From: Alcanivorax limicola
GTDB taxonomy: Bacteria; Pseudomonadota; Gammaproteobacteria; Pseudomonadales; Alcanivoracaceae
Assembly (NCBI RefSeq): GCF_019931215.1
Contig: NZ_JAIOUB010000001.1
Location: 434,001-498,000, forward strand
DNA: 64,000 bases
Reading direction: 5' to 3'
Numbering within the stretch: position 1 is the first letter of the stretch; every line of letters starts with the position of its first letter. Positions 1 to 10,246 of the stretch are shown piece by piece. The notes below the pieces were generated by a model that worked only from the letters and a program-made list of their open reading frames with translations, had not been told where the DNA came from and made no database searches. Made by a program: the position numbers and the translations under genes.

Positions 1-1973
1 AGGTGCTGCGACGTGAGGCGCTGGCCAAGGGGGACGAGTCGCTCGGTACCGAACCCTTCACCATCGGACTGTGGGTGGGCAACAAGGTGACGCCCGGTAC
101 GACTGAGGACAGTCATCGGGCGATTGAGGACATCCGCAACCCTGGTAGGTATAACGCTGGGGCGGCGTCTCCCGCGCAACTGACCAGTTGCCCTTGGTGT
201 GGCTCGGAAGTCGCTCCGGGGCGAGACGTGGAGGTCGACAAGGGGCAAGGGCGCACTCTCGTCTACTGTGGTGACAAGAAAGGCCGTTGTGACTTCTCGA
301 AGGGCAAGTCCAGCAAGCTCCCTCACCCGGGCATCCCGGTGTTAGTCGTGGACGAGGAGATCTACCACCGTCCCCCGACGATGATGATCGCCACCGTGGA
401 CAAGTTCGCCATGATGGCGTGGCGGGGCCAAGTGCGTACTCTGTTCGGTCGGGTCGGCCAGGAATGCGAGCGGCACGGCCTGTTATGGCCAGGCGCGGAC
501 TGTAATGGCAATCACCAAGCTGGCAGGGGACTCGGTGCCGCCAAGGTCAAGAATATCAGCCCGATCCGACCGCCGGATCTGATCATCCAGGACGAGTTCC
601 ACCTGATCAGTGGGCCGCTCGGCACCATGGTTGGCCTGTACGAGACGGCCGTGGACGAACTGTGCGGCTGGAAGTTTGGCGAACGTATGGTGAAGTCGAA
701 GATCATCGCGTCGACCGCCACGGTGCGTAAGGCCCGCGAGCAAGTGAACAACGTCTTCATGCGCCAAGTGTCGGTGTTCCCGCCGCATGGGCTGGACGTG
801 GAGGACAACTACTTCTCTGTCCAACGCCCCATTGAGGACAAGCCGGGACGGCGCTACCTTGGGATCTGCTCTCCCGGAAGTTCACGACCTGCGATGTTGA
901 TTCGCGTCTACACGGCATTCCTGACTGCTGCTCAGGCGTTGTTCGACCGCTTCGGCGAGCCCGCAGACCCCTACATGACCATGGTCGGCTACTTCAACTC
1001 GCTGCGAGAACTGGGGGGCATGAAGCGCTTGGCCGAGGACGATGTGCAGACGCGTTCCTACCGGGTACAGATGAGCATGGTCGAGCGGCCCGCGCTCGCG
1101 CAACGCAGCGTCAGCAATATTTGCGAGCTGACCTCGCGGGTTTCCAGCCAGGACATCCCGAAGTACCTCGACAACCTCGAGGTGAAGTTCAAGTCCGAGT
1201 TCGATGCCGTAGCCGGCAAATACGTGACCAAGTGGCAAGAGGGCGACACCCGGGCGATCGACGTGGTGCTGGCCACCAACATGCTGTCGGTGGGGGTGGA
1301 CGTCAATCGGCTGGGACTGATGGCGGTCAATGGCCAGCCCAAGGGCACGGCGGAGTACATCCAGGCCACCAGCCGAGTGGGGCGTTCCTTCCCCGGATTG
1401 GTCTGCACCGTGCTCACCTGGGCACGACCACGCGACCTCTCGCACTACGAGACCTTCGAGCACTACCATGCCACCTTCTACAAGCACGTCGAAGCGCAGT
1501 CGGTGACACCCTTCTCGCCGCGCGCGATGGACCGTGGCCTGACCGGCTCGCTGCTGAGCCTGATGCGCCTGGAGAACGATACGTTCAGCCCCAACGAGGG
1601 GGCAGGCAAGTTGGACAAGTCAGATCAGAGCGAGATCACTGAGGCCATCAATGTGCTCGTCAAACGGGCATGGAACGTCAGCGAGCTGTCCAGCACTAAG
1701 AGCCTGGCCGAACAGGAGCTCAAGGAGCGCGCGGACGAGTGGGCGAAGGAAGTGAGCAAGGGCGGCCGGATCTTGGGCTATGAGAAGCGGGGTCCCGAGA
1801 AGGACAAGACGGTTGCATTGATCAAGTCGCCTGGCATCCACGCGTGGGATAACTGGACCGTACCCATGTCAATGCGCGAGGTGGAGCCTGGCGTGCGCCT
1901 TATCATGAACACGAGCCATATCACGGACGATCACGACTGGAGACCTCGTCCAGCGACAAAGGATGAGGATTGA
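1..1973 (+). CDS. drmA: DISARM helicase DrmA, 5'-truncated by window edge
   Basis: The visible 656 residues are the C-terminal part of a superfamily 2 helicase; the reading frame is open to the window edge, so the N-terminus lies upstream. Seen: an early Cys pair (CPWCG) and YCGDKKGRC that look like a zinc-binding insert, a DEAH-like motif II (IIQDEFHL, about residue 196 of the visible part), a STAT motif III about 40 residues later, LATNMLSVGVD (motif V region) and QATSRVGRS (motif VI). Known: DrmA is the helicase of DISARM, a multi-gene restriction-like anti-phage system, and works with DrmB. It is followed directly by drmB and drmC in the canonical order, which supports the call more strongly than the helicase motifs alone. 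The methylase that defines the DISARM class, and drmD or drmE, would have to lie outside the window. Confidence 0.88.
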   Translation, partial: VLRREALAKGDESLGTEPFTIGLWVGNKVTPGTTEDSHRAIEDIRNPGRYNAGAASPAQLTSCPWCGSEVAPGRDVEVDKGQGRTLVYCGDKKGRCDFSKGKSSKLPHPGIPVLVVDEEIYHRPPTMMIATVDKFAMMAWRGQVRTLFGRVGQECERHGLLWPGADCNGNHQAGRGLGAAKVKNISPIRPPDLIIQDEFHLISGPLGTMVGLYETAVDELCGWKFGERMVKSKIIASTATVRKAREQVNNVFMRQVSVFPPHGLDVEDNYFSVQRPIEDKPGRRYLGICSPGSSRPAMLIRVYTAFLTAAQALFDRFGEPADPYMTMVGYFNSLRELGGMKRLAEDDVQTRSYRVQMSMVERPALAQRSVSNICELTSRVSSQDIPKYLDNLEVKFKSEFDAVAGKYVTKWQEGDTRAIDVVLATNMLSVGVDVNRLGLMAVNGQPKGTAEYIQATSRVGRSFPGLVCTVLTWARPRDLSHYETFEHYHATFYKHVEAQSVTPFSPRAMDRGLTGSLLSLMRLENDTFSPNEGAGKLDKSDQSEITEAINVLVKRAWNVSELSSTKSLAEQELKERADEWAKEVSKGGRILGYEKRGPEKDKTVALIKSPGIHAWDNWTVPMSMREVEPGVRLIMNTSHITDDHDWRPRPATKDED

Positions 1974-1975
1974 AT

Positions 1976-3835
1976 ATGACAACGAGCAATAAGACTCCGG
2001 TCGGAGAAGTAAGACCCAGCCAGTTACTCTGGACCTACGGCCCAGGGGCTTTGATCGACCTGCCGAGCCTATCCGTCGTGACGCTCGGCATCGACCGATG
2101 GGAAAAGGACCGTTGCCAGCCGATCCAGGAAGCCAGGCTGTTGGCCGCAATTCGCAAGGTGCTTGGGGCACAGGTCGAGAGCCTGAGGATGCCACCGTTC
2201 CAGAAAAGTGAGCTCTTTGATCCGTGGTCGGCCGAGGCCAACATTGGCGTTCCCGTCCGGCCATTCCCTCGCTGGATGCGCTGCGTCAAATGCGGCCTGC
2301 TGTCTCCTTTCGATGCCGGATTGTTCGAGATCAAGGAGAACCGTTTCAGGTCCGAGCGAACCCGATTCGTCCACAAAGGATGTCGGGGTTCGAAGGGCGA
2401 TCAACCCGCCAAGGACGCCGACGCCGTACCGGCACGTTTCCTGTTGGCTTGCCGCGACGGCCACCTCGACGATTTCCCTTGGCATTACTTCGTCCATGGC
2501 GGCAACAGCTCGTGCAAGGGCACGCTGCGCTTCTTTGAGAGCGGCGCCTCGTTGCAGACCGAGAACCTGTGGGTGAAATGCGATGCTTGTGGTGCCTCAA
2601 GGAGCATGGCACACGCCTTCGGCAAGGCTGGAAAAGAGAATCTGCCGGGATGTCGCGGACGACATCCCCACCTTGATCACTTCGACAACGAATGTGACGA
2701 GGAGGCGCGGGCGGTTCTGTTGGGCGCCACGAACAGTTGGTTCCCGATCACCCTCTCGGCGCTAGCTATTCCCCAGACCAAGGGCCCACTCAGTCAGCTG
2801 ATCCAGGATGGTTGGGAGTTTTTCGAGGAACTGAAAGCTGAAGCCGAAGTGTCGGTGACAGTGAAGATCTTGAAGAAGACCGGGGCGTTGCCAGGGGTCG
2901 ACAAATATCCGGCGGCGTCAATCTGGTCGGCTATTGAGGCGCACCGTAGTGGCGGCGGACAGGAGGTCGTGGGTGAGGCCGACATCAAGGGCCCCGAATG
3001 GGACGTGCTGACAGAGGCGAATCCACCTACGGACTATCCGCACTTCATGAGCAAGAAGGTCGGCACGCCGCCGGCTTTTGCGAAACATATCGGCAGAGTG
3101 CTGCTTCTGGAGCGACTGCGAGAGGTCAATGCCTTGCTCGGTTTTACTCGCGTGGAGGCGCCCGAGGAAACTGGCGACCCGAATGAACGGCCCCAGATGG
3201 CCAGCCTCTCACGAAGCAAACCGGATTGGGTTCCCGCGAATCAGGTGCATGGTGAGGGTATCTTCATCCAGTTCGATGAACCGGCGCTCGTCGCTTGGGA
3301 AGCGCTACCCGCCGTCGTGGAGGTCGACAAGATGCTCCGGGGCGGCCACAGGGGATGGCGCAATTCACGTCATCTCGATCCTGACGAGGGCTACCCTGGC
3401 ATTCGCTACGCCATGCTCCACACGCTCTCGCACCTGCTGATTCGTGAGCTGGCGTTGGAGTGCGGCTACAACGCCGCGAGTATCCGCGAACGAATTTATG
3501 CCGACACCTCGGGCGAGAGCCCGCAGGCCGGCATCCTCATCTACACGGCAGCAGCGGATTCCGATGGAACCCTGGGCGGCCTCGTCGATCTCGGCAAGCC
3601 GGAGAATTTGGGACGCCTATTTGAGCAAGCCTTGAATCGCTCAAAGATCTGCTCCTCTGACCCGCTTTGCTCCGAGCACGATCCCGAGAAGGATCGCTCA
3701 CTTCATGCGGCGGCGTGCCACGCTTGCAGCTTGGTGGCGGAGACCTCCTGCGAGCGTGGTAATCGCTACCTGGATCGGTCATTGCTGGTTCCGACCCTCG
3801 AACGCATCGACGCGGCTTTCTTCAAGGACTTGTGA
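1976..3835 (+). CDS. drmB: DISARM protein DrmB (DUF1998)
   Basis: A 619-aa protein starting at the ATG at 1976, three bases after the drmA stop; GAGG at 1965-1968 is a well-spaced ribosome-binding site. An in-frame TTG at 1970 is a less likely start. Several CxxC pairs are visible (MRCVKCG near residue 90, CDACG near 203, and CHACS...CERGN at the C-terminus), and the region with TLSHLLIREL followed by the Cys cluster is the DUF1998 signature that defines DrmB. In DISARM, DrmB forms a complex with the helicase DrmA. The almost zero spacing from drmA and the following drmC supports a single operon. The catalytic activity of DUF1998, if any, cannot be read from the sequence. Confidence 0.9.
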   Translation: MTTSNKTPVGEVRPSQLLWTYGPGALIDLPSLSVVTLGIDRWEKDRCQPIQEARLLAAIRKVLGAQVESLRMPPFQKSELFDPWSAEANIGVPVRPFPRWMRCVKCGLLSPFDAGLFEIKENRFRSERTRFVHKGCRGSKGDQPAKDADAVPARFLLACRDGHLDDFPWHYFVHGGNSSCKGTLRFFESGASLQTENLWVKCDACGASRSMAHAFGKAGKENLPGCRGRHPHLDHFDNECDEEARAVLLGATNSWFPITLSALAIPQTKGPLSQLIQDGWEFFEELKAEAEVSVTVKILKKTGALPGVDKYPAASIWSAIEAHRSGGGQEVVGEADIKGPEWDVLTEANPPTDYPHFMSKKVGTPPAFAKHIGRVLLLERLREVNALLGFTRVEAPEETGDPNERPQMASLSRSKPDWVPANQVHGEGIFIQFDEPALVAWEALPAVVEVDKMLRGGHRGWRNSRHLDPDEGYPGIRYAMLHTLSHLLIRELALECGYNAASIRERIYADTSGESPQAGILIYTAAADSDGTLGGLVDLGKPENLGRLFEQALNRSKICSSDPLCSEHDPEKDRSLHAAACHACSLVAETSCERGNRYLDRSLLVPTLERIDAAFFKDL

Positions 3836-3836
3836 C

Positions 3837-4607
3837 ATGGAGAAGCTCTTGGATGCCGTTGCAGCACTAGTGTTTCTGGTCTCTCCAGAGAAGGTCCAGG
3901 CCATAGCCGGGCGAATTCGCAGGACTGATCCCGTCAAAGTTCCCGATGCGCTGTCTAGTGCAGTCAGCACCCCCGTTGCTGCTGAGATTGTGGATCAGCT
4001 CATCAATGCATGGCAAAGCACCTCTGTTAGCGCCGAGGAACTCGCATTGATGCTGCTCGCGGCAGGACATGTCATGACCAAGGCAGCCAATCAACAATCC
4101 GTCGAACTCGTGTGGACTGGGCCCACGACCCCCTTCGTCTCTGCGCGACGAACCGAGCAGTCACTACTGCAAGTGATAAATAGCGCTGAACATACTCTTT
4201 TCATTACTAGCTTCGTAGCCTATGACGTGGCGAGCGTTATTAAAGCGTTGAACGCGGCGGCTGGCCGTGGGGTTGCAATTTCTATCCTTCTTGAAAGGTC
4301 TCAAAGCGACGGCGGCAGCATTTCATTCGATGCGATAGCCAAGATGAAAGTTCTTGTACCAGAAGCCAAGATCTTCACTTGGGGGATTAGCTCAGAGCCT
4401 TTCAGCGGCGGTAGCGTCCACGCTAAAATTGCAGTGAGCGACGATCATAGATGCCTTATAACCAGTGCCAACCTTACAGGGCATGCAATGGAAAAAAATA
4501 TGGAAGCGGGCGTTCTTATTTCAGGAGGAATTATTCCCAAGGCGCTATCAAATCATCTTAAATCTCTTGTTGCCATGAAGGTCATTTCTCCAATTTATGA
4601 AATATAG
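3837..4607 (+). CDS. drmC: DISARM phospholipase-D-like protein DrmC
   Basis: A 256-aa protein whose ATG (3837) lies one base after the drmB stop, with AAGGA upstream. The N-terminal ~90 residues are helical. The C-terminal half is a PLD-like domain with one HKD motif, H195-x-K197-x4-D202, followed by TSANLT, the usual Asn-containing strand. With one HKD per chain, an active PLD enzyme would have to dimerise. DrmC is the third core DISARM gene, and in published DISARM work it is less essential than DrmA and DrmB. Base composition drops from about 4150 to the stop (many A/T-rich codons), unlike drmA and drmB, which hints at a separate origin or drift of this gene. Confidence 0.88.
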   Translation: MEKLLDAVAALVFLVSPEKVQAIAGRIRRTDPVKVPDALSSAVSTPVAAEIVDQLINAWQSTSVSAEELALMLLAAGHVMTKAANQQSVELVWTGPTTPFVSARRTEQSLLQVINSAEHTLFITSFVAYDVASVIKALNAAAGRGVAISILLERSQSDGGSISFDAIAKMKVLVPEAKIFTWGISSEPFSGGSVHAKIAVSDDHRCLITSANLTGHAMEKNMEAGVLISGGIIPKALSNHLKSLVAMKVISPIYEI

Positions 4608-4711
4608 AATCTTGACCTTAGCCTTGTCCGAGGATGCGCCGCGGAGTCGCTATGCAAGACCAGAAGCTTTAGCACTATTATAACTGTTCGTGGAAACGGG
4701 GTAGAACAGCA

Positions 4712-5806
4712 ATGCTTTATTACACACTTGATGTTGCTCATACCGGCGGAAGCATCCGGATCCCAGAGATGCCACCCTTCGTACCGCAGCCGGTTCGCTA
4801 TCCCTGCGAGCGCTGTGGAAAGCTTTTCGAGAACAGTGCCGATCTGGCTCAGCATGTTCTGGTGGCGCACCCGTATCATCGCCCGGTGCTATTGCTTCGC
4901 GGCGTAGAGATAGGGGTGTCTCCCGGCCCTATCATTCTACCCAGCAGGCCAGATGACTGGCAGGTAATGCACGCTGAGGTACTACGTCTCAATGGCGACG
5001 AAATTTCCGCAGTCCAGCTCGCCGAGCATCTGGCAGCTGAGCACAGCGGCGTTCACTTTCTGGAGTTGGTCAGTCAAGCCTCGCGTGTAGAGATTCGTCT
5101 CGTATTCGCAATTGCAACACAAGAGCATCTGGAGAGTGTTGAGAGTGCCTTCTGCATGCTGATTGAGGGGCATCTATCTGACGTCTCCCGCGTTACCCAA
5201 TTTATTGATACATGCCAGCCATGGTCAACCGCCAGCCCTTATCTTGAAGGCGTTAGCCAATACCTGTTCGGAGTGCTGGCTAAAGACCAGCGTGGTGACA
5301 CGGGTTTAAGTCACGCTCATCACAAGGAGCGTTTCAACCAGGCTATTGAGGTATTGCGTCATAATGACCGACCACTGGCGAGACTGATTACCTCGGTGAT
5401 CAACTTCAGTTTCAATCATTTTTCTGGGGCTGTGCAAAGCCCTTCGCCTGTACTTAATCAGGCAGCAACGCGCCTTGCAGGCTGGGCGGGTAAGCCGATA
5501 GCAGCGGCCAGTGAAGTACATAACCAGACCACAAAGGCCTTCCCGCTAGACAGCGCTACTGAGCAGCTCACTGGCTGGCTCGCGCTATCTGCTGAGGCAG
5601 CGTTGGAGGAGCTTGATGATATTCGCCACGCCTCCGCCAGCTTGGCATGGACCCCGGAAGATTGCAGCAAGGCCGAGGCCTTGCTGTTAGCATTGCTGCA
5701 GCATCAGGGTGCCAGCGACGAGCTGCGTTGGGTAGCCAGAAACCTGCAGCACCATTCCTTGTTTGCCCCCCTAGCCGCCGGGGTGCTGGAGAACTTGCAT
5801 GACTGA
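4712..5806 (+). CDS. C2H2 zinc-finger protein of the Hsp70 cassette
   Basis: A 364-aa protein that I do not recognise as a named family. Residues 32-53 form a textbook C2H2 finger: C32-x2-C35-x12-H48-x4-H53, with F39 and L45 at the usual hydrophobic core positions. Such fingers are common in eukaryotes and sparse in bacteria. The remaining ~300 residues are mostly helical with no motif I can name. Its last 8 bases overlap the next gene (ATGACTGA), a strong sign of translational coupling with the coiled-coil and Hsp70 genes. A second start at 4769 (residue 20, just ahead of the finger) is possible. The finger could bind nucleic acid or a partner protein; this is inference. Confidence 0.72.
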   Translation: MLYYTLDVAHTGGSIRIPEMPPFVPQPVRYPCERCGKLFENSADLAQHVLVAHPYHRPVLLLRGVEIGVSPGPIILPSRPDDWQVMHAEVLRLNGDEISAVQLAEHLAAEHSGVHFLELVSQASRVEIRLVFAIATQEHLESVESAFCMLIEGHLSDVSRVTQFIDTCQPWSTASPYLEGVSQYLFGVLAKDQRGDTGLSHAHHKERFNQAIEVLRHNDRPLARLITSVINFSFNHFSGAVQSPSPVLNQAATRLAGWAGKPIAAASEVHNQTTKAFPLDSATEQLTGWLALSAEAALEELDDIRHASASLAWTPEDCSKAEALLLALLQHQGASDELRWVARNLQHHSLFAPLAAGVLENLHD

Positions 5807-6836
5807 TGACGGTACGCTGCCGCCAGACAGCAGCAGCGAAAAGCCCCAAGTAAAGACAGTTTCTTCACAGATCGAAACCCTGATGGATTTTCTGCAGTGT
5901 TTCTACGATGGCAAAATCAGATCTCTCAATAACAAGCTGGCGCAGCGTATTGCCCGCCAATCCTCATTGCCGGAAGAGCAGATCTCAAAGCTGCTGAGCA
6001 TGGCAGCGGAATCGGACCCGGCTTTGGATCGAACCCTGAGCCTCTGGTTGGGGGCTCTACCGATTCAGAGTTACCCGGCCGTTCGCGATCAGCAGTTGCG
6101 CTTCGCCGAACGGCTGGTTCGCAATGCGTCTCCTGTGGGGCGTTGGCTTGAGGGCGATGCAGACACCGTCAGCATTCGCACCATGCTGGCCGATTATAAG
6201 CAGCAGCGAGATGTCGCCACTAAGGCGCCTGCCGACCAACGCAAGGTACTCCTGACACGCCTGGATAACGGTATTTTGCTTGCCAGCCTGATCTGGTCGC
6301 AGCGTGGTGTGGCAGACTCGATATTGCTGCAGGAATGGAAGCCGCTACTGTCTGCTGCTTCAGATATAAACGGCTTTGCCGCTCTGGTGCCGCTGATTCA
6401 GAAAATGCCCTTTGGCAAGCTTGCTGGTGTACGCAGCCTGCTGGAGCAGCACGAGCGCCACTCAGCATCCATGGCAGCCAACATCCAGCGTCTGGAACGT
6501 CTTGTTGATAGCCAGAAGCTGCAAATCGCACAGCTTCAGGCAGAGCTTTCCGAAACGCAGCAGCACAATGCTGTATTGGAGAATAATCTGCACACCAGCG
6601 AAGCGGCGCTACAGCAGTATAAGGAGCAGGCCCGGATAAAATCCATCCATCATACCGATGATGTGCATCAGCTGCAGAGTCGGATAAATCGTCTGCTGCA
6701 GGCGGAGTTGCAGTTGCTGCGCGATGCCCTTGTTGCGTTGCAGCGTGATCCGCCCAAAGTGCCGGTGGCGCTGGATTATCTGGATGAAGCAATCACCAAC
6801 ATCGACAAGGAAGCAACCCGCCTCAAGGAGCGATGA
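5799..6836 (+). CDS. Coiled-coil protein between zinc-finger and Hsp70 genes
   Basis: A 345-aa protein of unknown family. The first ~200 residues look globular and helical. From about residue 205 to the end there is a long heptad-rich coiled coil (segments such as RLERLVDSQKLQIAQLQAEL), then a conserved-looking tail with LDYLDEAITNID. The gene starts inside the end of the zinc-finger gene and ends one base before the Hsp70 ATG, so all three should be made from one message. A long coiled coil encoded directly ahead of an Hsp70 could act as a dedicated co-chaperone, nucleotide-exchange factor or scaffold by analogy with GrpE, but no GrpE signature is visible; this is inference. Confidence 0.68.
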   Translation: MTDDGTLPPDSSSEKPQVKTVSSQIETLMDFLQCFYDGKIRSLNNKLAQRIARQSSLPEEQISKLLSMAAESDPALDRTLSLWLGALPIQSYPAVRDQQLRFAERLVRNASPVGRWLEGDADTVSIRTMLADYKQQRDVATKAPADQRKVLLTRLDNGILLASLIWSQRGVADSILLQEWKPLLSAASDINGFAALVPLIQKMPFGKLAGVRSLLEQHERHSASMAANIQRLERLVDSQKLQIAQLQAELSETQQHNAVLENNLHTSEAALQQYKEQARIKSIHHTDDVHQLQSRINRLLQAELQLLRDALVALQRDPPKVPVALDYLDEAITNIDKEATRLKER

Positions 6837-6837
6837 G

Positions 6838-8652
6838 ATGAGCGTTTTCGGTTTTGACTTCGGCACCACCAACAGCCTGATTGCACGGGTTGAGGGTGAG
6901 CGTTGCGTGCTTGCCTTGGATGAGCGCGGGTTACCCCATCCCTCGGTGCTGTGTTACGAAGGTGATCAGGTCCTGGTCGGCCGCGAGGCGCGCGAGCGCA
7001 TGGTGGAGTCCCGCATTGGAGTTAGCGGCAATATTGTCCGCTCGCCGAAAACCTTGCTGGGTCGCCACTCTGTGCATGTCGAAGGCGTGGCACGCAATCC
7101 ACGGGAAATGGTTGGGAGAATTGTACGCTATGTGGCAGAACACGCTAGCCAGTTGCATCCCGGCGACTATCAGCGCGCGGTGGTTACCATTCCCGTAGAC
7201 ATGAATGGCGAGCGGCGTCGCGACTTGCGCGAAGCATTCCGGCTGGCCGGCGTCGCCATTGACCAGTTCGTCCACGAGCCGCTTGCAGCCTTGTACGGTT
7301 ACCTGCGCAGCCAACCGGATTATCGCAGCGAGCTGCGTCGGCTAGATCGCCAGTATATGGTGGTGTTCGATTGGGGTGGTGGCACCCTGGATCTGACCCT
7401 GTGCCAGCTGGTTGATGGCATGCTGGTGCAGACCCGCAACGATGGCTGCAGTCAAATCGGTGGAGACGTGATTGATGAAACCATCCGCAATGAAGTGGTG
7501 CGACGGGTGATCACCGGGCGCGGCATCCAGCAGGAAGTGGAGCCCGTATCCGGTGCCGCAGCGCGTCTGCTGGCGCGGGCCGAACGCGCCAAAATCGAGC
7601 TGTCTAGCAGGGAAAGCTATCGGGTTTACGTGCCCAACTATTTCTACGGTCTGGATGACCCGGATATTGAGCACACCCTGATGCGCGCCGAGCTGGATGC
7701 CATGGTCGGTGACAAGATCCAGTCCGGTATCACCCGCGTCAACGCCTTGCTCAGCGCTGCCGGGCTAGTGCCGGCGGACATTGCCCTATGCCTGGCCACC
7801 GGCGGCATGGTCAACATGCCCCTGATCAAAACCCGCCTGTACGAAATCTTCGGCTCCCAGCGTGTACGGGTATCCGATCGCGGGCAAACCATCATTGCCG
7901 AAGGCGCAGCCTGGATCGCCCACGATCGCGCCAACCTCTGCTTGGCCAAGAACATTGAGGTCGCTCTGGCCCGTGGCGCCCGGCATCCGGTAATCCGCGC
8001 CGGCCTGGACATGCCGCGTCAGGGGATGGCCACCGACAGCGTCCGTCTGCAGCTGTATTGCACCGATCCGCGTGACGGGGTGGCCAAGATCCAGCTGGAA
8101 ACCCCCATCCGCCACGGCCGCCATGTACAGAAAACCGATCCCCGCGACAGTCTTGCGCTGTTGTCGGTTGCGGTGGACGGCCAGGCAAAGGAACTGTTCG
8201 AGCGTGTCGATATGGGCCTGACCATCGATGAAAACCTGATCTTGACCGTGGAGGCCCGCTCGGCCTTGCTGGAGGATAAGGACCGGCAGGAAATCCACAC
8301 CCTCGAATTCGGCCTCCAGGTCGGCAGTGATCAGGCCAGGCGGAAACAGGAGGGCGAATCGGAAAAGCACTCAGCGCAGGGTTCAGGCAAGCAACCGACT
8401 GCCAACGGGCAGGTGATGCTGCGCGCCAATCTAGCCTTGCATCAGGACATGACCCTGATCCCCGGCGACTACTTGCGGGTTGTACGCCCCCGGGCTCTGG
8501 CTCGGGACAGCAACCCGACCGAGCAGCAAATCCGGGAGGACCTCTACTACCGCCCCTGTTCCCTGTGTGGCCGGCGTAGTAACGACCCCTTGTGCCGCTG
8601 CGGCAGTAAGCTGCCGCCAAACCTGCAGTCGGATAGCATCCAACGTCATTAG
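6838..8652 (+). CDS. Hsp70-family ATPase with Cys-rich C-terminus
   Basis: A 604-aa DnaK-like protein; the ATG at 6838 follows the upstream stop by one base. The ATPase domain keeps the Hsp70 landmarks: phosphate-1 loop FDFGTTNS (residues 6-13), SPKTLLGR (equivalent of the DnaK catalytic Lys segment), HEPLAALYGY (connect-1), phosphate-2 FDWGGGTLD (D178, T183) and an adenosine motif LATGGMVNMP near residue 320. A substrate-binding beta-domain-like segment (VDMGLTIDENLILTVEA) is recognisable. The usual helical lid is missing: the protein ends in a linker and a CxxC...CxC cluster (CSLCG...LCRCG, about residues 573-587) that looks like a zinc ribbon. This is not the housekeeping DnaK, which lies beside dnaJ/grpE. 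As the last gene of a three-gene cassette beside DISARM it is a likely defence-associated chaperone; function is inferred. Confidence 0.8.
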   Translation: MSVFGFDFGTTNSLIARVEGERCVLALDERGLPHPSVLCYEGDQVLVGREARERMVESRIGVSGNIVRSPKTLLGRHSVHVEGVARNPREMVGRIVRYVAEHASQLHPGDYQRAVVTIPVDMNGERRRDLREAFRLAGVAIDQFVHEPLAALYGYLRSQPDYRSELRRLDRQYMVVFDWGGGTLDLTLCQLVDGMLVQTRNDGCSQIGGDVIDETIRNEVVRRVITGRGIQQEVEPVSGAAARLLARAERAKIELSSRESYRVYVPNYFYGLDDPDIEHTLMRAELDAMVGDKIQSGITRVNALLSAAGLVPADIALCLATGGMVNMPLIKTRLYEIFGSQRVRVSDRGQTIIAEGAAWIAHDRANLCLAKNIEVALARGARHPVIRAGLDMPRQGMATDSVRLQLYCTDPRDGVAKIQLETPIRHGRHVQKTDPRDSLALLSVAVDGQAKELFERVDMGLTIDENLILTVEARSALLEDKDRQEIHTLEFGLQVGSDQARRKQEGESEKHSAQGSGKQPTANGQVMLRANLALHQDMTLIPGDYLRVVRPRALARDSNPTEQQIREDLYYRPCSLCGRRSNDPLCRCGSKLPPNLQSDSIQRH

Positions 8653-9106
8653 TATCAACGCGGAACCGACGGCATCGGCCCCAGAGAAGCTGAAGACTCG
8701 AATGAAGCTGAGGCCGAGCTTCTGAGAGCTTTCTGCTGGCTGCCGGCCAGACCCTGCAAGGTGCCGCTTTCAGATCGCGACGAGGTTCTCTACATCGGAG
8801 TGGGAGCGCCTCTTGATGGAAGGAAGTACCAAGGCCATGGTATTGGCTCACGCATGCCATCCTACTGCCAGATGGCGCCGGGTCAACACGGGATTGCTGT
8901 CTCGAAAAGACGATATGTTCCGGTGGCACAGTGACAAGAGCGTGACCTGGTTGCAATTGTCACCCTCGGAATGCAGCCTGATCAGGCCATATTTCGCCTA
9001 TGGCCTCGAGGCGTATTTATTGGCTGTACTTCGGATCTCGCATAACTCTTCAAGGCCAGCGAGGCCCAAGCCTATTATGTCGACTTCATGAGGGAAGTAC
9101 TGCTTA
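8653..9106 (+). pseudogene. Decayed coding stretch after the Hsp70 gene
   Basis: About 450 bp without a convincing intact gene. In the same frame as the Hsp70, directly after its TAG, there are 93 further open codons (8653-8931) with no early start codon; they include DEVLYIGVGAPLDGRK. One frame over, from about 8813 to 9091, comes LEAYLLAVLR followed by HNSSRPARP. Read together, the two segments vaguely resemble a GIY-YIG-type nuclease (LYIG... then a C-terminal Leu-Glu-Ala-Tyr and His-Asn region) broken by a frameshift. The pattern suggests either a lost gene or an Hsp70 C-terminal extension cut by a stop. No terminator is obvious. Confidence 0.35.
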
Positions 9107-10246
9107 ATGTTTGTTTTTAGCGATATGGATGGCTGGCCACTCAGTGCAGTGCTTCCGCCGCCCGAGCCTATATTCGATCTTCTGGGACTCCCTGTTTCAC
9201 TGCAGTCGGCGGTAAAGCTCTTGGAGAGCTTCCATCGCTTGGCCGGAGAGCGTCCGTCTGACACCACCATTCATGCCATTGAAAAAGGGAAAGCCAGCAA
9301 GCAATCTGAATTGCAACTCATGAACTACCTCCCAGCTTTCTTTTTGCCGGATGATAAGGAGATCAAGGATGCTCAGCAGTTCGAGAGAACGCCTTTCTCA
9401 CGTCATTCATGGAAGGCCGTCTTGCGTGGCGTTTATCATTGGGCAGTACCCCCTGAGCTTGCTTTACTTGAGGATTTCGTTAAGGATCGCATTGCCAAGG
9501 AAGAGGCGTTGCATAGGGAGCTTTATGGCCCGACCTATCTCAGGTGGCCGCGAGGCGATATCTTCACCTCTATCGGGCGACAGATTGCGTATCCACCATC
9601 CATACTGGACATGCTTGCCGCCGGGGAAGAAGCATTCTGCCTTGCGTTATCTGAAGGTAGAGTTAGTCATGAGGATCAGCTGAAGGTTATACTATTTTTC
9701 GAGCTTGATTTTATATTCGGTGCATTGAAATCCTTGGAAAGGGGAATTATTTCCTATCGAATGCGTATAGATGACAATTTCAAGAGAAGATATCCAAAGA
9801 TGGCCGATTATGTGGCTTTCTCTCATTTTTTTCCTGGATATGAAGATAATGACTTTTATAGCCCTTTCGAGCGGTTCCTTGATCTTGTTCGATGCGGCTT
9901 CTCCAGTGAATATAAAACATGGTCGGCCCTCTCTAATTTCATACCCGTAGAAGGTGAACAACACTTAGATCCTTCTGCTGTGAAGGCAAGAAGAAAAGAT
10001 ATCCTGAAGAAATGGAGGTCGCTCGGAAAGAAAAGAGGGTATATGCCATCGATGGAAGTAATGGTTGGCTTTATTGACAATTTGTCAGCGGACGACGATG
10101 AATATCGGCTGCTTATCATCGTGGCCTGGGCTGCTATGTTTCTGGAGAGGGCCTTCACCAGGCATGTCGAGTTTGCACAAGGCTTGGATCTGCCTTCAGC
10201 GAAGGCTAGCGTCCTCGCTGAGTATCGGCGATACAGAGAGCCATAG
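9107..10246 (+). CDS. Unrecognised 379-aa island protein
   Basis: An intact 379-codon gene with no family I recognise. The first residues are followed by mainly helical sequence; it has aromatic-rich stretches (for example FFELDFIFGALK and FSHFFPGYEDNDFY) and no signal peptide or clear membrane segment. A/T content rises sharply around 9660-10060 compared with the flanking chromosome, with codons rarely used elsewhere in the window, which points to horizontal origin. The ribosome-binding site for the ATG at 9107 is poor (GAGGG about 12 bases away). A later ATG at 9125 is possible. A strong hairpin follows at 10264-10290. It may be island cargo independent of the DISARM/Hsp70 genes. Confidence 0.6.
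   Translation: MFVFSDMDGWPLSAVLPPPEPIFDLLGLPVSLQSAVKLLESFHRLAGERPSDTTIHAIEKGKASKQSELQLMNYLPAFFLPDDKEIKDAQQFERTPFSRHSWKAVLRGVYHWAVPPELALLEDFVKDRIAKEEALHRELYGPTYLRWPRGDIFTSIGRQIAYPPSILDMLAAGEEAFCLALSEGRVSHEDQLKVILFFELDFIFGALKSLERGIISYRMRIDDNFKRRYPKMADYVAFSHFFPGYEDNDFYSPFERFLDLVRCGFSSEYKTWSALSNFIPVEGEQHLDPSAVKARRKDILKKWRSLGKKRGYMPSMEVMVGFIDNLSADDDEYRLLIIVAWAAMFLERAFTRHVEFAQGLDLPSAKASVLAEYRRYREP

Follow-up and report, generated by a model that had tools for sequence, protein, structure and literature searches.

Hsp70-family chaperones have already been met in the context of bacterial conflict. In coiled-coil nuclease tandem (CoCoNuT) systems, an Hsp70-like protein termed CnuD occurs in a defence context alongside coiled coils, in superoperons that are reported also to hold bacteriophage exclusion (BREX) and type I restriction-modification (RM) systems; CnuD is partnered by McrB-like GTPases and CnuC, and its Walker A-like motifs are described as degenerate (PMC11090510). 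An HSP70 likewise appears in the predicted conflict operons of the GAP1-N2 systems, which are described as GTPase-centred, with GrpE and with FNIII or DnaJ partners (PMC7159879). Phage sensing by bNACHT25 is reported to need host DnaJ together with its DnaK interaction (PMC12169576), a case in which a chaperone supplies input to immunity, and a 2026 survey of BREX names nucleases embedded in these operons, GmrSD and Schlafen proteins among them (PMC12839542). Here we describe a three-gene cassette encoding a C2H2 zinc-finger protein, a coiled-coil protein and an Hsp70, found in a 64,000-nucleotide stretch of the Alcanivorax limicola genome (contig NZ_JAIOUB010000001.1, positions 434,001 to 498,000; hereafter the window), where it adjoins an operon of the defence island system associated with restriction-modification (DISARM). 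The cassette is probably an undescribed chaperone-driven defence module and not a part of DISARM.

The cassette resembles each of these systems without coinciding with any of them. It shares with CnuD the Hsp70-like protein, the defence setting and the coiled coils, but its ATPase residues are invariant, a difference judged against the published description of CnuD. Among 15 genes scanned in the DISARM island (the window up to position 10246, together with L002, the same contig extended upstream of the window), no McrB-like GTPase and no CnuC/McrC was found, and neither was any GTPase, GrpE, FNIII or DnaJ partner of the GAP1-N2 kind. Like the auxiliary GmrSD and Schlafen genes of BREX, the cassette is an optional occupant of the junction between pglX and pglZ; unlike those genes, which the survey gives as nucleases (PMC12839542), it encodes an Hsp70 ATPase without a recognised nuclease. 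The term 'hsp70' has no occurrence (0) in the main text of that survey as available, nor does it appear in the available text of a preprint on YprA/DISARM helicases (PMC12458937). No paper in the literature searched brings hsp70, DISARM, BREX and a zinc finger together, and no description of the cassette was found there; subscription papers and preprints are mostly uncovered by that literature, and an earlier description is conceivable, if unlikely.

An alignment of four Hsp70 sequences, searched against a genome contig collection with patterns specific to the Hsp70 alone and blind to its partners, returned 57 distinct loci (L-numbers below). By their record titles these span eight phyla (Pseudomonadota, Actinomycetota, Acidobacteriota, Gemmatimonadota, Nitrospirota, Cyanobacteriota, Binatota and Latescibacterota), several being metagenome bins. 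The window coiled-coil protein, used alone as a query against the same collection, found no relatives, whereas the Hsp70 alignment succeeded. In window coordinates, the parts of the cassette are:

4712..5806, plus strand: zinc-finger protein of 364 amino acids (aa); homologues in 56 of the 57 loci; structure model with a predicted local distance difference test (pLDDT) score of 90.7 and a predicted template modelling (pTM) score of 0.81
4799..4870, plus strand: C2H2 finger, residues 30-53 of that protein; Pfam zf-C2H2 match at 0.0027, below the curated cut-off; ligands invariant
5799..6836, plus strand: coiled-coil protein of 345 aa; homologues in 57 of the 57 loci; model pLDDT 86.5, pTM 0.56
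6420..6743, plus strand: helix of about 108 residues (208-315) predicted in the structure model of the coiled-coil protein
6838..8652, plus strand: cassette Hsp70 of 604 aa; Pfam HSP70 match at 1.7e-42, DnaK profile match, invariant ATPase residues (a longer listed frame from 6724 reflects a mechanical start, and 6838 is used)
8557..8601, plus strand: C-terminal cysteine knuckle of the Hsp70 (C574, C577, C586, C588), from conservation across 58 sequences

These genes form a near-strict three-gene unit with conserved metal ligands and ATPase residues. A profile search placed the coiled-coil gene upstream of the Hsp70 gene and on its strand at every locus, with the finger gene in the same order and orientation at all but one, L068, which ends at a contig edge. 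The preliminary description of this DNA had allowed that the three proteins might fail to co-occur in other genomes, an objection that falls away on these counts. It had also reported that the finger and coiled-coil genes overlap by 8 base pairs (bp) and that the coiled-coil and Hsp70 genes lie 1 bp apart; both values are correct, and the tight spacing recurs across the loci. With the window included, the distance from the coiled-coil gene to the Hsp70 gene lies between -20 and +12 bp at every one of the 57 loci, and that from the finger gene to the coiled-coil gene between -52 and +50 bp in 53 of 57, the four outlying values being probably start-codon miscalls by the gene-calling script. The three proteins also diverge in parallel, their pairwise distances across 52 loci being correlated at 0.79-0.82.

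The unit is also rare and probably mobile. In genome samples that each count the window's own genome, the finger gene occurs in 2 of 369 genomes of the class, the coiled-coil gene in 2 of 244 of the order, and an Hsp70 above 1e-70 in 2 of 398 of the phylum, both of them cassette carriers (three candidates per genome were scored); a nucleotide search of E. coli genomes gave no cassette match. Two conjugative Paenarthrobacter plasmids carry the cassette. The finger gene of L011 is interrupted by an IS3 element, and the annotation of L012 shows the same transposase beside the partial match. All five matched IMG/VR loci hold the three genes, with weak coiled-coil scores in L091 and L092 (33 and 26 bits). 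An origin in phages was considered and rejected, given that the finger protein had no match in 50,697 phage records and that one of the five IMG/VR loci, L089, is a BREX operon and not clearly viral. Ahead of the cassette of L091 stand two genes (L091:2339-5661) whose motifs, read by eye, may be those of McrB and McrC.

The Hsp70 is the best defined of the three products. Residues G5, D7, G9-N12, K71, E147, D178, G180-T183 and D185 are invariant in 58 sequences, and we take their ATPase roles to be those of the corresponding DnaK residues. In the best match of the Hsp70 profile to a DnaK chain, positions 3-491 of 593 are aligned, which covers the nucleotide-binding domain and the beta substrate-binding part. 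In the same alignment the linker columns lack the hydrophobic VLLLD motif of DnaK, and the match stops short of the region that forms the helical lid in DnaK, although some chains align further. That region instead holds the cysteine knuckle, of which C574, C577 and C586 are invariant and C588 is at least 90% conserved in the 58 sequences. Judged from sequence, the helical lid may be missing from the cassette protein.

In the finger protein, all 53 aligned sequences share ligands C32, C35, H48 and H53, and both the C-x2-C-x12-H-x4-H pattern and the fold agree with a C2H2 finger. The family profile matches zinc fingers in the PDB (1mey at 1.2e-7 and the six-finger 2i13 at 9.1e-16, E-values that sum several fingers of one chain), and the modelled finger superposes on 2drp at 0.6 Å over 28 columns, with an E-value of 1.8. 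Beyond the finger, the model shows a small alpha/beta portion and a C-terminal half made of helices; the model has no PDB fold match at E<=0.001, and weak matches of the TPR type are a lead only. The coiled-coil protein is modelled as an N-terminal helical domain, the long helix and a C-terminal helix. Members of its family have diverged quickly, sharing 15-29% identity with the protein of the window, and conservation is best at residues 281-320; its PDB sequence matches are generic coiled coils, and its model has no PDB fold match at E<=0.001. A coiled-coil gene ahead of an Hsp70 gene recalls the DnaK-DnaJ-GrpE machine, whose grpE gene often precedes dnaK. A GrpE-like or J-domain identity of either partner is, however, unsupported by family, fold and PDB sequence searches. 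In PADLOC-DB 2.0.0, the finger protein and the Hsp70 match no family up to E=1, and the coiled-coil protein has six weak matches to coiled-coil-rich models, the best at 3e-4. Scans against Pfam, PADLOC and NCBIfam recognised no nuclease or toxin in the three proteins.

Having defined the cassette as a unit, we turn to its surroundings. For context labels, cluster representatives were scanned and the remaining members were labelled by cluster. By these labels, which are our own, at least one defence-related neighbour occurs in 39 of the 57 loci: BREX in 10, type I RM genes in 8, Hma, type III RM, an Hhe/PDC-S37 helicase, a LeoA-like gene and a MkoA-like gene in 2 each, and DISARM, type IIG RM, a DruE-like helicase locus, a Septu-type PtuA, GmrSD without BREX, type III clustered regularly interspaced short palindromic repeats (CRISPR) genes (L024) and a PbeC/DndD-like gene in 1 each. 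Included in the 39 are four loci with a neighbouring dynamin/phospholipase D (PLD) gene, a gene without an established role in defence. In 34 of 56 loci the cassette has at least one flanking gene on its own strand no more than 100 bp away.

Repeatedly, the cassette is nested among the core genes of its host. It stands between pglX and pglZ in nine BREX loci (L013, L016, L020, L021, L022, L025, L029, L030 and L043), where the interval sometimes holds other genes as well and where pglX is cut in L022; L089 adds a further such placement, and in the tenth BREX locus, L034, the cassette follows brxL. In L062 and L063 it separates hsdS from hsdR of type I RM, in L023 hmaA from hmaB, and in L014 it follows a type III res gene at a distance of 27 bp. 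Two of the BREX intervals have features of their own: a PtuA-type gene pair stands beside the cassette in L021, and in L020 (1704-7561) pglX is in two fragments with intervening genes, next to an apparently intact cassette. Thus, the cassette is tied to no single host system and is nested repeatedly in defence operons.

Methyltransferases are enriched around it. A PF02384 or PF07669 (N6-methyltransferase) match, the two families searched, lies within 12 kilobases (kb) of the finger gene in at least 20 of 50 genomes, a count read by hand that may be too low, against 2.3 expected from genome-wide counts; the Poisson-binomial P of about 3e-16 is indicative only, as the genomes are not independent and the match counts are lower bounds. 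The 50 comprise 49 genomes reached through the loci and the window's own, seven short-contig loci and L060 being left out. A mostly housekeeping context, which had been raised as the observation that would speak against a defence role, is disfavoured by this enrichment together with the 39 defence-associated loci. A stronger statement, that the cassette always lies beside a methyltransferase, was rejected on the same count, among the matches listed.

BREX operons were also compared with and without the cassette. Most of the relevant BREX operons have a divergent type of PglZ, which gives a weak match or none to Pfam PF08665, and PADLOC PDLC02566 was used instead. The matching PglZ type occurs in 8 of the 369 class genomes, and none of the 8 is among the sample's two finger-gene carriers. 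Nine BREX loci were taken from those genomes (L079-L087). In three of them (L079, L080 and L081) pglX directly adjoins pglZ; L085 has GmrSD in between, four others (L082, L083, L084 and L086) have Schlafen-type genes there, and L087 is too short for the interval to be read. The matching BREX type thus exists without the cassette, and the cassette has diverse hosts, so that we read it as optional cargo. Consistent with this, BREX is hardly clustered as a label on an Hsp70 tree of 58 rows (built by a quick method and with several long branches), requiring 8 changes for 10 rows as compared with a shuffled mean of 9.4, and 49 of 500 shuffles were as low. The nearest rows to the window Hsp70 on this tree are L013, a BREX locus, and L014, a type III RM locus.

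Taken together, we favour, at a probability of roughly 55%, the reading that the cassette is a self-contained, horizontally mobile Hsp70 machine, carried as interchangeable cargo by defence operons that are often methylation-based, among them BREX, DISARM, Hma and types I and III RM, and most likely forming an anti-phage layer of its own. We infer this defence function, and any mechanism for it, from comparative data. The finger/helical protein would recognise a target, either a phage nucleoprotein or a DNA-bound protein; the elongated coiled-coil protein would bridge this target to the Hsp70, replacing a J-domain or exchange partner; and ATP-driven clamping by the Hsp70 would remodel or sequester it. 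Phage replication could be blocked in this way, or anti-restriction proteins removed, with no nuclease step assumed. The physical complex, the adaptor roles, the target and the effect on phage are all proposals of the model, and the chaperone may sense phage proteins, as suggested in the preliminary description. In its fullest form the proposal, which is speculative and which we offer only tentatively, is of a nuclease-free immune module in which the finger and coiled-coil proteins, as an adaptor pair, would deliver an Hsp70 that has a zinc knuckle in place of a lid to phage nucleoprotein complexes or anti-restriction proteins, and which plugs into many operons, either sustaining the host system or finishing what it misses.

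Several observations weigh against this interpretation. Eighteen of the 57 loci lack a labelled defence neighbour, being unlabelled, truncated or partly scanned, and the labels rest on scanned cluster representatives. When all context labels are placed on the Hsp70 tree, they need 20 changes as compared with a shuffled mean of 28.4, and none of 200 shuffles was as low, a clustering which indicates that context is partly inherited. Within BREX loci, distances correlate with those of PglZ at 0.50 for the Hsp70 and 0.66 for the finger protein, as compared with 0.55 for BrxL; the cassette therefore follows PglZ about as BrxL does, and this test does not separate cargo from core. The partner roles draw no support from fold searches at E<=0.001 or from the J-domain and GrpE families of Pfam and NCBIfam. 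The Hsp70 is the sole recognised enzyme, which leaves an effector missing, and the cassette, lying on the same strand within operons, might depend on its host system.

This last point leads to the first of two main rivals, in which the Hsp70 module has no defence activity of its own and instead assembles, stabilises or restrains large methyltransferase or restriction complexes, for example by making methylation precede restriction after transfer. The same-strand nesting, with a close neighbour in more than half of the loci, the enrichment near N6-methyltransferases and the partial co-inheritance with PglZ would all agree with such a role, but the hosts are diverse, the matching BREX type lacks the cassette in 8 of 8 sampled genomes, 30 of the 50 genomes have no PF02384 or PF07669 match within 12 kb among the matches listed, and the cassette also lies near type III CRISPR genes. 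We regard a pure helper as unlikely, while giving it serious weight.

The second rival holds that the module senses phage inhibition of the methyltransferase or restriction complex and triggers arrest. PrrC acts as a guard of this kind from within type I RM operons, and the placement between hsdS and hsdR in L062 and L063 would suit such a task. Backup suicidal effectors have also been reported embedded in BREX operons (PMC12839542). Against a guard, no toxin or nuclease was recognised in the three proteins by the family scans, and the varied hosts would need to present a common trigger; we consider this explanation rather improbable. A role in general stress or mobile-element maintenance, with residence in islands due merely to island mobility, would agree with carriage on plasmids and in IMG/VR records and with the loci that lack a labelled defence neighbour, but it fits poorly with a cassette flanked by core genes in BREX, Hma and type I RM operons or with the methyltransferase enrichment, and we hold it to be very unlikely.

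At the window itself, the cassette adjoins a class-1 DISARM operon, recognised by PADLOC in the window and L002, in which drmA, drmB and drmC are accompanied by drmD and drmMI and also by drmMII. The order on one strand is drmMII, drmD, drmMI, a GHKL-ATPase gene and then:

1..1973, plus strand: 3' part of drmA, whose start lies upstream of the window (full protein of 1341 aa in L002); PADLOC DrmA E=0
1970..3835, plus strand: drmB; PADLOC DrmB 4.7e-82, Pfam MZB 3.9e-11; the 1970 start is a TTG giving the longest frame, and codon scoring suggests that the actual start may be near 2051
3840..4607, plus strand: drmC, phospholipase-D family, in the best-read frame; PADLOC DrmC 8.8e-111, PLDc_2 1.7e-18

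The preliminary description gave this succession of drm and cassette genes, on one strand, correctly in both identity and coordinates. A gap of 104 bp (4608-4711) separates drmC from the cassette; a consensus scan found nothing resembling a terminator there, nor a promoter-like site on the plus strand anywhere between 3700 and 9200. Since the gap is free of terminator-like sites, transcriptional read-through from drmC into the cassette is plausible, as judged from sequence. The preliminary description left two options, an add-on arm of DISARM and an independent system on the same island, and we favour the latter. The shared strand and short gap would suit a working component of DISARM, but just 2 of 58 loci had a DISARM that could be recognised, the window and L048 (the latter through clustering with the window's drmA and drmB), the drm genes of L048 lie on the strand opposite to the cassette, and the closest relatives of the window Hsp70 are in BREX and type III RM loci, leaving the arm hypothesis the least probable of those considered here.

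Additional genes accompany the cassette at some loci. Within the DISARM operon, between drmMI and drmA, a 626-aa protein (L002:14056-15936) has an N-terminal GHKL ATPase domain by Pfam; it is BbrUII/HgiDII-like, yet below the cut-off of that model, and its residues 145-247 match the PADLOC SpbK model, a region that we presume to be a TIR domain. Downstream, the interval between the Hsp70 gene and the next gene (8653-9106) contains broken open frames and may represent a decayed gene, with no convincing match among neighbour genes collected from cassette loci; the next gene (9107-10246, cassette strand) encodes a 379-aa protein that matches no family of Pfam, PADLOC or NCBIfam. Thirteen loci, all of them actinobacterial and L011 among them, have a coiled-coil gene of about 445 aa directly behind the Hsp70 gene (L041:11766-13109), at a distance of 1-9 bp; it is called as overlapping in L045 and has no Pfam match in the member scanned. 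In six loci (L032, at 4648-7572, L033, L034, L044, L047 and L049) a gene for a dynamin-like GTPase with a C-terminal PLD-like (MIT_C) domain directly precedes the finger gene; this GTPase, whose C-terminus resembles one BrxL model, lies elsewhere within the BREX operon in L029 and L043.

Most characterised anti-phage modules act through a terminal effector such as a nuclease, an NADase or a membrane toxin. A conserved three-gene module whose only recognised enzyme is an Hsp70, present in eight phyla and set within or next to BREX, DISARM, Hma and RM operons, would suggest that immunity can work by ATP-driven remodelling of proteins; alternatively, it would point to a general helper of methylation-based defence. 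Core defence operons, moreover, have internal cargo sites that are worth mining.

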